Below, one piece after another: positions 4,132 through 53,799 of a stretch of 64,000 bases of DNA; within the stretch, counting starts at the first letter, position 1, and each line of letters starts with the position of its first letter. The notes below the pieces were generated by a model. It ran no database searches. It was not told the origin of the DNA and saw only the letters and a program-made list of their open reading frames with translations. Location: NCBI RefSeq assembly GCF_904067545.1, contig NZ_LR881183.1, positions 1,740,277 to 1,804,276 on the forward strand. Direction: 5' to 3'. Made by a program: the position numbers and the translations under genes. Source of the stretch: Thermococcus camini (GTDB lineage: Archaea; Methanobacteriota_B; Thermococci; Thermococcales; Thermococcaceae).

Positions 4132-4171
4132 CTCCCACTTTTTAAACCCTGGGAACCCACACTTCTCAACA

Positions 4172-4183: not shown

Positions 4184-4202
4184 TGAGAACTAATAGTTCT
4201 CA
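4184..4202. promoter_or_regulatory. Perfect dyad operator candidate (7-bp arms)
   Basis: TGAGAAC-TAATA-GTTCTCA is a perfect 7-bp inverted repeat with a 5-bp centre, lying between the TATA box and the start codon of the ATPase. A partial half-site (TTCTCA) occurs at 4163-4168. The position is typical of an archaeal repressor operator. The cognate regulator is unknown. Confidence 0.55.
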
Positions 4203-4211
4203 GGTGTTGGT

Positions 4212-5390
4212 ATGAGGCTCGGGGATTTGACTTATATGAACCCCTGGTGGGAGGGAAAGGAGGACTACCACGCGAGGCGCTGGAGAGAGCAGAGAATCCG
4301 CTGGTGGCCAAAATGGACTGGTAAGCTCTCACTTAAGCCATTCTCGCTCAACTTCGTCCTCGGCCCGAGGCAGGTAGGAAAGACAACGGGGATAAAGCTC
4401 CTCATCCAAGAGCTCCTGAGAGAAAATCCGCCCGAATCAATTCTGTACATCAACGTCGAAATCCTCCCAGACTATAGAGAGCTTTCAGCCCTGCTGAGAG
4501 AATTTCATGAGCTGAAGGAAAGGGAAAGAATCAGAACAGGATACATTTTCCTGGATGAAGCATCGTCACTTGAGGGCTGGTGGAGGGGAGTTAAGCCCCT
4601 CATTGACGCAGGTATCTTAGAGAACGACGTTATCACGGTTACAGGGTCAAGCTCTCTGAGGGTAAAAAGAGACATAGAATTGTTCCCGGGAAGGAGGGGG
4701 AAGGGAAAGACCATTGATGTCATGCCGCTCTCTTTCAAGGAATACGTCGAAGTGATGGGCCTGAAAAGGCCAGGACTTCAGGGAGAAAAGACGCTGAAAC
4801 TCTTTGAGAAGTACCTAAAAACAGGAGGCTTTCCGGGAGCAATAAACGGCCTTCCGATGGATGACCTTCTTGGGGCTTACATAGGGGAATTCGTCCGCTT
4901 CGGAAAGAGTCTGGAGATAGTGAAAGAGACTTTTTCAGCAATAATAAGGAGCGCGCCCTCAGCGACGAGCTTCAGAGCGTTGGCTGGAATGACCTCTGGC
5001 TACTCCTACAAGGTGGTTCAGGACTACATAGAGTTCTTCGTCGAGCTGTACATTCTCGGAATAGCGTACCTCAGGCAGGGAGAGCAGGTGCTCTACAAGC
5101 GGGAGAAGAAGTTTTTCTTCCGCGACCCGCTTTTGGCAAGGCTTTTCTCCACCTGGAGCGGAGCAGAGCTTAGGGAGGAGGCGCTGTACGAATGGGTCGT
5201 CCAGGAGCATCTATACCGGAGGTTCGGGAAAGTTTACTATTACAGGAACTCATACGAGGTGGACGCGATAGCCGGAAACCTGAAGGTTGAGGTGAAGGCC
5301 GGGAAAGCCCATAGGAGATACCCAAAAAACGTCATCGTGCTCGAAAAGGAGGACGTACCCTTTTTCCTCCTCGACATTATTCTCCCATGA
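4212..5390 (+). CDS. AAA-family ATPase with DUF4143-type C-terminal domain
   Basis: A 392-residue P-loop ATPase of the archaeal AAA_14/DUF4143 group. Walker A is LGPRQVGKTTG near residue 53, Walker B YIFLDEAS near 115, and VTGSSS near 141 is a sensor-like motif. The C-terminal part has a nuclease-like end: YRNSYEVDAIAG then LKVEVKAGK resembles the DxxE-K pattern of the restriction-endonuclease fold found in this family. The function of these very common archaeal proteins is unknown; defence or genome-maintenance roles have been suggested. ATG 4212 follows AGGTGTTGG. The gene sits alone behind its own dyad and overlaps the convergent yjbQ by 14 bp. A second family member lies at 47563-48873. 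Confidence 0.85.
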   Translation: MRLGDLTYMNPWWEGKEDYHARRWREQRIRWWPKWTGKLSLKPFSLNFVLGPRQVGKTTGIKLLIQELLRENPPESILYINVEILPDYRELSALLREFHELKERERIRTGYIFLDEASSLEGWWRGVKPLIDAGILENDVITVTGSSSLRVKRDIELFPGRRGKGKTIDVMPLSFKEYVEVMGLKRPGLQGEKTLKLFEKYLKTGGFPGAINGLPMDDLLGAYIGEFVRFGKSLEIVKETFSAIIRSAPSATSFRALAGMTSGYSYKVVQDYIEFFVELYILGIAYLRQGEQVLYKREKKFFFRDPLLARLFSTWSGAELREEALYEWVVQEHLYRRFGKVYYYRNSYEVDAIAGNLKVEVKAGKAHRRYPKNVIVLEKEDVPFFLLDIILP

Positions 5391-46725: not shown

Positions 46726-47566
46726 TTACAGCCCTCCCGTCGGGCTCTATCTCGATGAACGCCCTCCTGTTGGCCCAGCACTGGACGACCAAGCCAAGGG
46801 GAAAGCTCGCGGGGTGCCTGTGGGCGACCTCTACCTTGACGTCCAGGGCGGTTGTTTTCCCGCCCATTCTCATCGGACCTATTCCCAGGGAGTTGACCTC
46901 CTCCCGGAGCTCGGCCTCGATCCTCGCTATTCTCCTATCTGGATTCCTTTCCCCCACTTTTCTCAGCAGGGCCTTTTTGGCCAGGAGCAACGCATAATCC
47001 GCACTACCACCAACGCCTATCCCCAGGACAATCGGAGGACAGGGCTTCCCGCCGCAGGCCTTAACGTGCTCGACGACGAAGCGCTTTAGTCCCTCCCAGC
47101 CCTCGGAGGGAGTCAGCATAGCCAGAGCAGAGCAGTTCTCGCTTCCCCCTCCCTTGGGAAGAACCGCTATCCTTATCGCATCCCCCGGAACAAGCTCCCA
47201 GTGGATTAGGGGAACGTCCCTGCCCGTGTTGTCGCCGGAGTTCCTTCCGGTAAGGACGTCGACGGCGTTTGGCCGGAGGGGAATCTCATGAGTTGCCCTC
47301 CTCGTAGCCTCGGTGAGCAGGTCTCTGAGTCCACCGAGGTAGGGACTCTCAACGCCGGCCTCGACGAAGAAGGTCACCGTGCCCGTGTCCTGGCAGACGG
47401 GAATGGACTCGATTTTACCAATCTCTATGGCCTTGAGAATGTTCCTGAGGTTGAAGCGCGCTATTTTGCTCTCCTCTCGCTCGTAAGCCTCCCTGAGGGC
47501 CAAAACGACATCATCGGGAATCCTCGTGACGGCCAGCCTTATCGCCTCGACGACGGCATCAATCAA
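46715..47566 (-). CDS. Fumarate hydratase class I, alpha subunit
   Basis: 283 residues with conserved cysteines of the 4Fe-4S site: IPVCQDTGT near 57, GSENCSALAML near 142, KACGGKPCPP near 170-175. RPNAVDVLTGRNSGDNTGRD near 98 is typical. The start is TTG 47566, overlapping the stop of the upstream ATPase (TTGA), with GGTGA upstream; no ATG fits. The beta subunit is 4.9 kb downstream beyond a plus-strand block. The stop region overlaps the STAND gene's end by 11 bp. Confidence 0.92.
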   Translation of the reverse strand: MIDAVVEAIRLAVTRIPDDVVLALREAYEREESKIARFNLRNILKAIEIGKIESIPVCQDTGTVTFFVEAGVESPYLGGLRDLLTEATRRATHEIPLRPNAVDVLTGRNSGDNTGRDVPLIHWELVPGDAIRIAVLPKGGGSENCSALAMLTPSEGWEGLKRFVVEHVKACGGKPCPPIVLGIGVGGSADYALLLAKKALLRKVGERNPDRRIARIEAELREEVNSLGIGPMRMGGKTTALDVKVEVAHRHPASFPLGLVVQCWANRRAFIEIEPDGRAVIRG

Positions 47567-48873
47567 TTGGCATTCACCTGTTGAAAGTTGCGTTTGGGAT
47601 TAAAAAGTTTGACGCAAAAATTTAAAAGCCACCTCCAAAGCGGAACGGCCTTAACAGTTAGGCGGTCTCGCCTTATCTCACCGGAGTAATCCCACGTCAC
47701 GAGCGTTCCAGTTTTCACACGGAACAGTTTCATAACCCTGAAAAGGTTTTCCACTTCCCTTGAAGCTACCTCATCCTCACCCGAGGCATACGTAACCTGT
47801 ATGAGTTCGGTCTCCCCTTTATCCCTAACAACAAAGTCCACCTCGCCCTTAGCGTCCCGATAATGGTAAAGTTCAAGGCCGGGTCTCCTGTAATATTTGA
47901 ACCGCAGGAGTTCAAGAAAGACTGCATTCTCCATGAGCCTACCGATGTTTTCCGAAACCTTTGGAAGGACCGCATTGAGCATTCCCGTGTCAACTGCGTA
48001 GACCTTCTTATCGCTCCTCACGACCTCTTTGGGCTTGAAGGAGAACTTGGGAAGCTCAAAAATCAGGTAGGCGGATTCAAGGTACTCAACGTAGTTCTTC
48101 ACCGTCTCGATGTTGCCGATTCCGAGGGCGTTCTTTGTCTTGCTGTATGTAAACCGTCCGGCGAAGTTCGAGAAGAGGTAGAAGGCAACCTCCTTCAGCT
48201 CACGGACGTTTCTAACGCCATAGCGGACTATGACATCCCTCGTGATGATATCGTTGTAGAGATTTATGAGGTACTCCCTGCCGAAGTGCAGAGCCTCCGG
48301 GAAGCCACCGCGCTCGATGTACTCCGTTAGGGCCCTCTTTATCAGAGCCTCGTCTCTCGTTGTCTTAACATCCGGCTCAATTTTCCGGTACGTTAAAAAC
48401 TCCCTGAACGAAAACGGCAGGAGTGTATAGCTCAGGTATCTTCCAGTCAGATACGTTGCGAACTCCCGTGAAAGAAGCCGGGCATTGCTCCCGGTAACGA
48501 CTGTTGGATAGTCGTCCCTAAGAACCGAAACCATCCTCTCCCAGCCCTCGACTTCCTGAACCTCGTCAAGAACCACGTAATCAAACTGACCAAAAAGCTC
48601 GTAACCTGCCTGCATAAGCCTCCTATAGTCCCCAATCGCGAAACCCGCCATCGCAGGATCCTCAAAGTTTACATAGAGGGGTCTGCCGGGAAGGGTCGCC
48701 GAGAGAACGGATTTTCCGGAGCGCCTCGGCCCGGTTATTATGTGAGCCGTTGGGCTGAAGCTAGCAAGGATCCTCCCCTTCAGTTCTCTCCCGACGATGT
48801 TCTCCCGCTCAAGCTTCCTGCTCAGGGTATCCCACTGATCAGCTAATACTCTCTTGAGTTCTTCAACGTTCAT
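47563..48873 (-). CDS. AAA-family ATPase with DUF4143-type C-terminal domain
   Basis: 436 residues. Walker A is ITGPRRSGKSVL near 46, Walker B YVVLDEVQE near 98 and VVTGSNARLL near 126, then a winged middle and a C-terminal nuclease-like portion with AKGEVDFVVRDKGETELIQV near 349. This is the same family as 4212-5390 but of the other subgroup. The stop overlaps the TTG of the fumarase alpha gene. Its promoter (minus-strand ACTTTATAGG, 48897-48906) is overlapped by the first of three 34-bp repeats, so it is probably strongly regulated, maybe by itself or an unlinked repressor. Confidence 0.88.
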   Translation of the reverse strand: MNVEELKRVLADQWDTLSRKLERENIVGRELKGRILASFSPTAHIITGPRRSGKSVLSATLPGRPLYVNFEDPAMAGFAIGDYRRLMQAGYELFGQFDYVVLDEVQEVEGWERMVSVLRDDYPTVVTGSNARLLSREFATYLTGRYLSYTLLPFSFREFLTYRKIEPDVKTTRDEALIKRALTEYIERGGFPEALHFGREYLINLYNDIITRDVIVRYGVRNVRELKEVAFYLFSNFAGRFTYSKTKNALGIGNIETVKNYVEYLESAYLIFELPKFSFKPKEVVRSDKKVYAVDTGMLNAVLPKVSENIGRLMENAVFLELLRFKYYRRPGLELYHYRDAKGEVDFVVRDKGETELIQVTYASGEDEVASREVENLFRVMKLFRVKTGTLVTWDYSGEIRRDRLTVKAVPLWRWLLNFCVKLFNPKRNFQQVNAN

Positions 48874-48902
48874 GGAAGGAACTAGTTCAAACTCCCTATA
48901 AA

Positions 48903-49004
48903 GTTTACCACTATACTGTCAAACTTTTCATCAAAATCGTACCACCATACTGGTAAACTTTTCCAGCGAACGTTACCAGCATGCTGACAAGTTTGCGAGA
49001 AGTC
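48903..49004. repeat. Three tandem 34-bp operator-like repeats upstream of the ATPase
   Basis: Copies start at 48903, 48937 and 48971, exactly 34 bp apart. Each has the core TACCA-N6-TG-N2-AA. Copy 1 is GTTTACCACTATACTGTC then AAAC. Copy 2 is GTACCACCATACTGGTAAAC and contains the perfect dyad TACCA-CCATAC-TGGTA. Copy 3 is CGTTACCAGCATGCTGAC. Copy 1 overlaps the minus-strand TATA box. The spacing is just over three helical turns, as expected for cooperative binding of a repressor. Confidence 0.65.
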
Positions 49005-49031: not shown

Positions 49032-49949
49032 TCAGCCCTTCAGAGCCTCGACTATCTGCTCCGCGACCTGGACTCCAGCGCGCATCTGGGCCTCGACGGT
49101 TGAGGCCCCTATGTGGGGAGTTAGAACCACGTTGTCGAGCTTTGTGAGCGGGTGATCCTTCGGGAGGGGCTCCTCCTCGAAGACGTCCAGGCCAGCTCCA
49201 GCGATCCAACCCTCCTGGAGGGCCTTAACGAGTGCTCCGGTGTCAACCACAGCCCCTCTAGCCGCGTTTATGAGTATCGCCGTCGGCTTCATGAGCTTAA
49301 GGCGCTCCTCGTTTATGAGGTGGTAGGTCGCATCAATGAGCGGAACGTGGAGCGTTACAACGTCGCTCTCCCTGAGGAGGTCCTCAAGGGAGGCGAAGGT
49401 TCCACCGACTTCTTTGGCCCTCTCCTCGTTCGGGTAGGGGTCGTAGAGCAGGACTTTCATGCCGAGGGCGTGGGCTATCCTGGCGACCTCGTAGCCTATC
49501 CTTCCGAAGCCGACTACGCCTATGGTCTTGCCCTCAAGCTCGATTCCCATGGCCTGCTTCTTGGCCCAGATACCTTCCCTCATCTTCCTGTCGGCGAAGG
49601 CTATCTTCCTGGCCACGCTGAACATGAGCGCAACGGCAAGCTCGGCGACGCTTCTGCTCGAGGCGCCGGGGCTGTTGACGACTTTAATGCCCCTCTCCTT
49701 AGCGGCTTCGAGGTCTATGTTGTCCAGACCGACGCCGGCCCTTCCGATGACCTTGAGCTTTGGAGCCGCCTCGATGACCTTTCTCGTCACCTTCGGCTTG
49801 CTCCTGACGACTATAGCCTCAACGTCCCCGACGAGCTCCAGAAGGCGGGTCTCATCGGGATACTCCTCGTAAACGATTTCAAAGCCTGCGTTCTTCAAAA
49901 CCTCTATCGCCCTCTCGTGCAGAGGTGCCGCAACCAAAACCTTCACCAT
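49032..49949 (-). CDS. serA: D-3-phosphoglycerate dehydrogenase
   Basis: 305 residues catalysing the first step of serine synthesis. The NAD-binding GVVGFGRIGYEVARIA motif is near 145; ILINAARGAVVDTGAL near 227 and PLTKLDNVVLTPHIGASTVE near 265 hold the catalytic Arg and His. It is the short form without a C-terminal ACT domain, as usual in Thermococcales. ATG 49949 follows GAGGTGATGG. It is last in the panE-DUF47-serA operon. Confidence 0.95.
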   Translation of the reverse strand: MVKVLVAAPLHERAIEVLKNAGFEIVYEEYPDETRLLELVGDVEAIVVRSKPKVTRKVIEAAPKLKVIGRAGVGLDNIDLEAAKERGIKVVNSPGASSRSVAELAVALMFSVARKIAFADRKMREGIWAKKQAMGIELEGKTIGVVGFGRIGYEVARIAHALGMKVLLYDPYPNEERAKEVGGTFASLEDLLRESDVVTLHVPLIDATYHLINEERLKLMKPTAILINAARGAVVDTGALVKALQEGWIAGAGLDVFEEEPLPKDHPLTKLDNVVLTPHIGASTVEAQMRAGVQVAEQIVEALKG

Positions 49950-49959
49950 TTCCATCACC

Positions 49960-52128: not shown

Positions 52129-53138
52129 TCGGTTTCCTGATAGCAATCCTAGCAATAGCCGCTGGAATAGTCTGGTACGGCGGCTGGAAGCTGCTGCTCC
52201 AGGTGATACTCACCCTCGGCTTCCTCGGCGTCACCCTGATGCTGCTCTTCTTTACCGGACTGACGCTCTACGCCGAGAGCTGGAAGTACGGGGCGATACT
52301 CGCGATATTCACCGCGATAAGCGGCTACGGCCTCTACCTGAGCGCCACCTGGCGGAGCCTCAACGTCGTCGCCGGAATAATAGTCTTCTTCATAGCAATT
52401 GTTGCCTTCGGCATCTGGTACATCAGCGAGCCGGATTTAAGCCTGACAGACCGCTTCCGCTCGGCGGAAAAACTCGAAAAGATGGGCAAATACAAGGCCG
52501 CGGCAAGGAAGTACGAGAAGGCCGGAAACTACCTGAAGGCCGCTGAGATGTACGAGAAGCTCGGCTGGATGGAGAGCGCCGCCTGGGCCTACGAGAAGGC
52601 CGAGAAGTACGAGAAGGCGGCGGAGATTTATGAGGCCCTCTACGACAAGGAGAAGGACACCTACTACCTCAAGGAGGCCCACGAGTACTGGAAGAAGGCG
52701 GGAAACATGGAGAGGGCAGCTAAAGCCCTTGAGCGCTACGCCGAGGAGGAGCCGTGGTTCTGGGAGGACGTGGCAAAGCTCTACGAAGAGTTGGGCAACG
52801 AGGAGAAGGCCAGGGAAGCATGGGAAAGGGCCCTTGAGTACTACCAGAAGGAAGCCGGGGAGGAGGGTGTCTTTTACGAAGACGTCGGCAACATAGCGAG
52901 AAAGCTTGGAAAGGAGGAGCTGGCGAGGGAGGCATACCAGAAGTTCCTTGAATACTGCCTGAAGGAGGCGGAGCAGGACCCCATGTGGTGGAAGCACGTG
53001 GCTGAGGCCTACGACTACCTGGGAGAGAAGGACAAGGCGGAAGAGGCCAGAAAGAAGTACGAGGAATACAGGGCAAAGATCATGAAGGCCAACGAGGAGA
53101 CCTCGAAGTTCCCGGAGGAGAAGGAGAACCAGAGCTAA
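52104..53138 (+). CDS. Membrane-anchored TPR protein
   Basis: 344 residues. Four hydrophobic helices in the first ~115 residues are followed by a cytoplasmic TPR array (about 125-325) with repeats such as MGKYKAAARKYEKAGNYLKA and YEKLGWMESAAWAYEKAEKY. The tail is charged. It is a likely scaffold at the membrane. The ATG lies within ogt; GGGGGTGGAAGG precedes it. Confidence 0.85.
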   Translation: MDKLKAYLIGFLIAILAIAAGIVWYGGWKLLLQVILTLGFLGVTLMLLFFTGLTLYAESWKYGAILAIFTAISGYGLYLSATWRSLNVVAGIIVFFIAIVAFGIWYISEPDLSLTDRFRSAEKLEKMGKYKAAARKYEKAGNYLKAAEMYEKLGWMESAAWAYEKAEKYEKAAEIYEALYDKEKDTYYLKEAHEYWKKAGNMERAAKALERYAEEEPWFWEDVAKLYEELGNEEKAREAWERALEYYQKEAGEEGVFYEDVGNIARKLGKEELAREAYQKFLEYCLKEAEQDPMWWKHVAEAYDYLGEKDKAEEARKKYEEYRAKIMKANEETSKFPEEKENQS

Positions 53139-53509
53139 AATACCCTCTCTATTCCCTCAATTTTGTCGAAGTCCCTGTCGTTCGAGAGTATCCTCTTCAC
53201 GCCGTACTTCTTCATTGTGGTGTAGTGAATGGCGTCATCAAAATCCAGCTTTTCTACTCCCTCCGCTTCCACGAGAATTTCAGGCGTCAGCGGGACGACT
53301 CGAATCCCAAGTTCCGGAAGTATTTCCATAAGGTCAAACCTTCCGTTACTGTTCAGCCTTCTGAGGAGTATATAGAGCTGCCAAACGGTCAGAGATGAGG
53401 TTATCATTGACCCGTAATGTTCTTCCAGCAAATCGGTGGCCCTATCAGAGAACTCGGGGTTATCAATAAGGTGGTAGTAGATCACGTTAACATCAACGTA
53501 GGCCCTCAC
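53135..53509 (-). CDS. vapC: PIN-domain toxin (VapC)
   Basis: 124 residues: D6 in YVDVNVIYYHL, a mid acidic region, DFDDAIHYTTM near 89 and SNDRDFDKIEG near 110 give the PIN active site. It starts with GTG 53509, overlapping the stop of the upstream AbrB-type gene by four bases. It forms a type II toxin-antitoxin pair. Confidence 0.87.
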   Translation of the reverse strand: MRAYVDVNVIYYHLIDNPEFSDRATDLLEEHYGSMITSSLTVWQLYILLRRLNSNGRFDLMEILPELGIRVVPLTPEILVEAEGVEKLDFDDAIHYTTMKKYGVKRILSNDRDFDKIEGIERVF

Positions 53510-53748
53510 AGCTCTCCCCTCAGGAGCTTTTCAGTTTCTTCGTCCACGATTTTGTCAATATCCTCCCCGGTAAGGTTTTCCCCCCGGAAAATTCCCCGGT
53601 ATTTCATCAGCTTCTCCCTGACGGGAATCAGGATTATCCTGCCGTCCTTCTCCTCGACGTAGAACTCCCTGGAACGGAGATTTTTCCTGATGCTGGCGGG
53701 GAGGTAAACCCTCCCGTTGTCGTCGAGCCTCACAACTTCCACTGCCAT
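53506..53748 (-). CDS. vapB: AbrB/SpoVT-type antitoxin (VapB)
   Basis: 80 residues. The N-terminal swapped-hairpin domain reads VRLDDNGRVYLPASIRKNLR, followed by YVEEKDGRIILIPV, and a helical tail neutralises the toxin (IDKIVDEETEKLLRGEL). ATG 53748 is chosen because an upstream in-frame ATG at 53793 lies before the TATA-like CTATTTATTTT (53767-53777). Confidence 0.85.
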   Translation of the reverse strand: MAVEVVRLDDNGRVYLPASIRKNLRSREFYVEEKDGRIILIPVREKLMKYRGIFRGENLTGEDIDKIVDEETEKLLRGEL

Positions 53749-53799
53749 GGTAAAGATTAGATTTTTGGAAAATAAATAGTTTTTGGCAAACACGATTCC

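Follow-up and report, generated by a model that had tools for sequence, protein, structure and literature searches.

In archaea, helix-turn-helix regulators of the Ss-LrpB type are autoregulated via several regularly spaced dyads at their own promoter. Antitoxins, ParA/ParB, and the C proteins of restriction-modification systems also have palindromes at their own promoters, usually bound by a small partner or adaptor protein. In the archaeal order considered here, the TrmB/TrmBL1 operators and the TGM are likewise palindromes at the BRE/TATA or start site; TrmB (TACTN3AGTA) and TGM (TATCACN5GTGATA) sites belong to separate regulator genes with many-gene regulons (PMC4158304). PDC-S01 is a very common phage-defence candidate: as given in the available part of its description, it combines an ATPase with a PD-(D/E)XK domain and is the fourth most common prokaryotic defence system, with ~10,000 archaeal and ~29,000 bacterial copies, and that part describes neither an operator nor autoregulation (PMC12988326). 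A mechanism for PDC-S01 was not found in the literature searched.

In this study, we analyzed a PDC-S01 promoter in a 64,000-nucleotide stretch of Thermococcus camini DNA (hereafter the window). Our findings suggest that PDC-S01 proteins recognise and regulate the promoters of their own genes. Compared with PDC-S01 as outlined in the available part of its source, the locus has the same protein match and the same ATPase/PD-(D/E)XK architecture; here, however, the lysine of the nuclease motif is absent, and an internal winged helix-turn-helix (wHTH) domain and cognate dyads are added. Ss-LrpB is alike in its several own-promoter dyads, yet it is of the Lrp family rather than an AAA+ ATPase, and its site sequence is unrelated. 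Antitoxins, ParA/ParB, and C proteins similarly pair cognate, locus-specific palindromes with mobile defence or maintenance genes, whereas here the large ATPase itself is the likely binder. The promoter contains a real, conserved set of palindromic putative binding sites, with the following elements:

48900..48927, minus strand: dyad copy 1, proximal, -54 to -27 from the ATG, 11/14 base pairs symmetric, one arm overlapping BRE/TATA
48934..48961, minus strand: dyad copy 2, with a perfect TACCA/TGGTA core, 9/14 base pairs symmetric
48968..48995, minus strand: dyad copy 3, distal and more degenerate, 9/14 base pairs symmetric
48866..48893, minus strand: fourth copy, degenerate, keeping to the 34-bp register (left half-site ACCAGTNTRR)
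48896..48903, minus strand: TATA box CTTTATAG of the ATPase gene, from the sequence

The ATPase gene (47563-48873, minus strand) is separated by 158 bp from the end of a gene resembling D-3-phosphoglycerate dehydrogenase (PGDH; 49032-49958, minus strand), and upstream of it lie three 28-bp imperfect dyads with the consensus AAAGTTTACCAGTATRRTGGTAAACTTT. Pairwise, the three copies match at 57/84 positions, against a mean of 33.6 (sd 2.2) and a maximum of 43 in 2000 dinucleotide shuffles with the period left free between 28 and 44. The original prediction described TACCA-N6-TG in every copy, with a perfect TACCA/TGGTA dyad in the middle one, at a strict 34-bp period, all of which stands; its starting positions (48903, 48937, and 48971) are displaced, with TACCA at 48906, 48940, and 48974, 3 bp to the right. 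The dyad core is likewise sustained, though the symmetric unit spans 28 bp and is longer than first described. Copy 1 had been thought to cover the TATA box; its overlap with CTTTATAG is limited to the outer arm AAAG (48900-48903), and the 18-bp core ends just upstream, on the BRE side. Downstream of the TATA box, the degenerate fourth copy spans the predicted start site and the ATG. Its half-site fits best at register -20 across 19 genomes (7.0/10 matches vs <=5.1 in the other registers tried), reaching 9/10 in six genomes and 5/10 in the window itself; since it lies beyond the TATA box, the latter has sites on both sides. The constant spacing suggests that binding may be cooperative.

An orthologue search in 94 genomes of the family retrieved orthologues at 76-98% identity within the same genus, in a PGDH-ATPase-fumarase context wherever both sides were readable. 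Each of the 19 orthologues whose gene is intact and whose promoter is readable has the dyads, with the proximal dyad at 54-55 bp from the ATG and further copies at steps of 33-34 bp upstream; the TATA box adjoins the array in each of these ATPase-bearing genomes. At the match threshold used, arrays comprise two or three copies, copy 3 being detected in 13/19 orthologues, and copy number differs by whole 34-bp units (three in G050, two in G055). Core columns hold 1.3-1.5 bits in the two proximal copies (1.47 in copy 2), against 0.41-0.57 in the 6-bp spacers; the flank upstream of the array holds 0.2 bits per column. The motif is also confined in the genome: allowing <=3 mismatches, the core occurs in the 2.02-Mb genome of the window only in the array and at one odd 3-mismatch site, and nearly all <=2-mismatch matches in the family genomes sit at the PGDH/ATPase junction (2 matches in total for the reversed-pattern control). 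Repeats scattered away from promoters were not observed, and a dispersed repeat or MITE was rejected, many-copy dispersal not being seen in the own genome. With core and 34-bp spacing kept upstream of every intact orthologue and a motif that is not scattered, an operator array, as first proposed, is the best reading; our literature search, too, found no earlier description of an operator with such a pattern.

Arrays also occur where the gene does not. About 16 relatives without the ATPase gene still carry recognisable 34-bp arrays, mostly weaker; nine retain the array between PGDH and fumarase, and further arrays, again mostly weaker, are seen in G029, G031, G041, G049, G052, G067, G068, and G070 (34-bp-spaced arrays at L047, L050, L052, L054, L059-L061, L067, L069, L093, and L096, the last, in G070, with five copies). 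The median array score is 1.39 without the ATPase vs 1.56 with it (p 0.013), and in most ATPase-less genomes the TATA box beside the array is missing. These persisting arrays speak against a simple autoregulation story; they may be relics or have a second role. Might the array instead belong to the flanking fumarase/PGDH genes, or be a selfish or relic repeat unrelated to the ATPase? In its favour are the ~16 ATPase-less genomes with arrays either in the PGDH-fumarase interval or downstream of PGDH, yet we judge this rival highly improbable. Nine genomes with a short PGDH-fumarase gap have neither array nor ATPase, with the fumarase promoter intact in most; thus, fumarase does not need the array, and an operator of the adjacent PGDH and fumarase genes was rejected on these grounds. 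Furthermore, G060, G063, and G072 hold ATPase remnants, and therefore the gene is being lost, repeatedly so as the remnants and split copies indicate, while arrays at other loci accompany the ATPase family and not PGDH/fumarase. In close genome pairs, dyad positions change at least as fast as the bases beside them whether the ATPase is there or not, a pairwise test that is uninformative. As for the flanking genes themselves, the fumarase promoter of ATPase-less relatives is CACGTCAAACTTTTTAA, and its counterpart in the window (47596-47616) encodes the ATPase C-terminus (CVKLFNP); thus, the window's fumarase promoter is probably located within the ATPase gene. At L026 and L027 (G039 and G015) the ATPase is split or shortened, with the transposon-end-like sequence CCCGCCCT...AGGGC nearby, apparently as a result of insertions into the gene.

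The protein encoded downstream of the array displays the following parts:

47563..48873, minus strand: AAA_14-DUF4143 ATPase of 436 aa, PADLOC PDC-S01 (Pfam, PADLOC, AlphaFold2)
47989..48210, minus strand: winged helix-turn-helix domain, ~residues 222-295 (predicted structure, Foldseek)
48076..48120, minus strand: predicted DNA-recognition helix, ~residues 252-266 (covariation with the operator)
47614..47961, minus strand: PD-(D/E)XK-like domain, E-x-D-F ... Q-V-T, canonical lysine missing (alignments)

Its predicted identity as a 436-residue AAA_14/DUF4143 ATPase is borne out by Pfam (AAA_14, PF13173, 7e-28, 97.6 bits vs a gathering threshold of 27; DUF4143, PF13635, 4e-28, 98.5 bits vs 28.1), and residues 40-418 match the PADLOC PDC-S01 model PDLC04787 (E 3.4e-107). 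The NCBIfam search of the ATPase returned no match, and a search of solved structures by sequence gave no relative (best E 0.09). In the AlphaFold2 model (pLDDT 86) a wHTH, at pLDDT 88 when modelled alone, lies between the AAA+ core and the PD-(D/E)XK-like domain. The leading Foldseek matches of this wHTH are MepR/MarR, Phr of Pyrococcus, CodY, and Fur/PerR, weak singly (E 0.003-0.06) and consistent; as modelled, it resembles dyad-binding repressors and is a predicted DNA-binding domain fitting the dyads. The canonical lysine of the E/Q-x-K motif is replaced, by Q-V-T in all 18 sequences of a Thermococcus-centred alignment and by Q-V-[TC], with few S or other residues, in a wider one; thus, the branch of the 436-aa ATPase is probably not a canonical nuclease.

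With the whole model, Foldseek yielded generic AAA+ matches only, at TM below 0.4, the best being Cdc6/Orc1 (2qby, TM 0.28). Cdc6/Orc1 with its origin boxes is also alike in joining AAA+ to a wHTH and in having repeats beside its own gene. This likeness, and the standing of PDC-S01 as a defence candidate, favour the view that the dyads, instead of or besides forming an operator, serve the ATPase as a functional target, either a loading site akin to an iteron or centromere or a self-marker in its defence reaction. Yet the TM is low, there is no origin evidence, and the repeats hug the promoter, at fixed, operator-like positions around BRE/TATA and the start codon; moreover, a single genome can hold as many as 13 of these genes at unrelated loci, which is unlike origins or centromeres. 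Nor is the exact core noticeably enriched in viral contigs, where 10 single matches, about chance by estimate, led us to reject a viral target of the same sequence. We therefore hold a functional target to be unlikely, and an operator read by the ATPase is preferred.

The window holds a second gene of the family:

4212..5390, plus strand: gene for a second PDC-S01 ATPase of 392 aa, whose nuclease motif EVD...EVK is canonical
4184..4202, plus strand: perfect 19-bp dyad TGAGAACTAATAGTTCTCA of the second ATPase, between TATA and start, just downstream of TATA

The TGAGAACTAATAGTTCTCA dyad has a partner half-site, TTCTCA (4163-4168), at a distance of 34 bp on its upstream side, which gives the second gene the same architecture as the array of the 436-aa gene in a different sequence. 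In a blind scan of the 59 gene starts of the window, the two top promoters were those of the two PDC-S01 genes, both at spacing 34; none of 200 shuffles was as good for either, while p<=0.05 was reached by 4/57 of the others, none at 31-35 bp. Elsewhere in the window, two adjoining small genes (53135-53793, minus strand) have a VapC/VapB-type toxin-antitoxin look (PIN-like and AbrB-like, translations judged by eye).

The original prediction saw one case; an operator array now appears to be the rule for the PDC-S01 ATPase family, with a different spelling from gene to gene. Paralogues of the same genome have other dyads at their promoters: four TGAAAG-N4-CTTTCA copies ~32 bp apart at L004, and TGTCCAGTATATTGGACA at L002. 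In a single-dyad test (best dyad in the region -160 to +30), p<=0.05 was reached by 24/40 Thermococcales paralogues vs 2/58 ordinary promoters of the window. A joint test looked for two symmetric windows of 18-20 bp that resemble each other and lie 21-60 bp apart, as compared with dinucleotide shuffles; it was positive for 31/40 Thermococcales paralogues and 40/64 loci of other archaea and bacteria, vs 3/56 and 8/63 control stretches from the same loci (5-13%); many loci are related by descent, and therefore these counts are not fully independent. Several gene starts in these loci were set by alignment. The spacing was 31-35 bp in 30/31 Thermococcales and 33/40 other positives, against 0/11 control positives. 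The joint statistic was designed after examples had been seen, whereas the window scan and a plasmid/virus sample (12 plasmid and 9 viral loci) came later; the latter gave 11/21 vs 2/12 controls, with a less regular spacing of 21-51 bp. At other family members paired dyads ~33-35 bp apart lie around the TATA box. For example, L126 has TGGTACGGTATAGTGTACCA twice, 35 bp apart; Methanoregula (L241) has TACTCATTGCTAATGAGTA and TGCTAATTAGTAATTAGTA, 33 bp apart; and Pedobacter (L242) has TGTATTTTACTAAAATATA and TGTATTTTAGTAAAATACA, 23 bp apart, a spacing of some loci that is about one helical turn less. In the clade of L127, L128, L131, and L133 a single ~50-bp inverted repeat, GTTAAGTATGGAGGTAAA...TTTTACCTCTATACTTAAC, has the TATA box at its centre.

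What, then, binds the dyads? The one element common to the dyad loci is the ATPase, and the neighbours vary. Among 28 loci outside Thermococcales, operator distance follows the distance between recognition helices when the AAA domain is controlled for (partial r 0.39; permutation p 0.0005), as it does with the nuclease domain controlled for (0.41); the nuclease domain itself, once AAA is accounted for, does not track operator distance (0.07). In an unbiased scan of 122 protein windows the main hot spots were residues 179-197 and 245-269, the latter being the recognition helix; residues 179-197 score as high, and the covariation is not exclusive. Given that the AAA domain also correlates with operator distance, covariation is support for, not proof of, self-recognition. 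As TrmB and TGM illustrate, dyads at BRE/TATA are targets of known regulators in Thermococcales, and a separate transcription factor might similarly bind the array and control the ATPase. However, the array consensus TTACCAGTATRRTGGTAA fits neither of those palindromes, whose regulons were rejected, and has no other clear genomic site; a different dyad per paralogue would demand a different factor for every ATPase, and the loci share no constant partner gene; and operator sequence varies together with the helix of the ATPase itself. We find a separate factor improbable, somewhat less so than a functional target. Autoregulation, with each ATPase binding its own dyads, is the best explanation and, on this comparative evidence, a likely one.

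Under autoregulation, the ATPase, which combines AAA+ with an internal wHTH, would bind the dyads in the form of a symmetric oligomer, with a dimer on each 28-bp dyad, and neighbouring dimers would touch across the fixed 34-bp interval. Occupied copy 1 would cover the edge of BRE/TATA, with the start site covered by the degenerate copy downstream, most likely leading to autorepression of the leaderless promoter. We infer that binding by the ATPase may be both cooperative and nucleotide dependent, with release tied to a stress or phage signal. Family-wide, each PDC-S01 ATPase would recognise its own dyad pair or array ~33 bp apart around the promoter. More tentatively, and with more doubt than belief, we hypothesize that PDC-S01 ATPases of archaea and bacteria are self-addressed DNA-binding machines: the wHTH would read the gene's own dyad pair, ~33 bp apart at the promoter, helix and dyad would change together in new family members, avoiding cross-talk, and dyad occupancy could act as the switch through which ATP state or phage attack activates the defence.

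A cognate operator at most sampled loci offers a biochemical handle on the family, that is, a defined DNA ligand for each PDC-S01 protein and a testable autoregulatory circuit, and the dozens of natural protein-operator pairs are material for recognition rules. Own-dyad recognition would also be a simple explanation of how up to ~13 paralogues coexist in one archaeon without cross-regulation. Among the plasmid relatives of PDC-S01, the one from Treponema (L291) has HsdR on one side and a class I DNA methyltransferase on the other, that of Arcobacter (L300) stands beside cas3/cas4, and that of Enterococcus gilvus (L301) is found near an HsdS gene.
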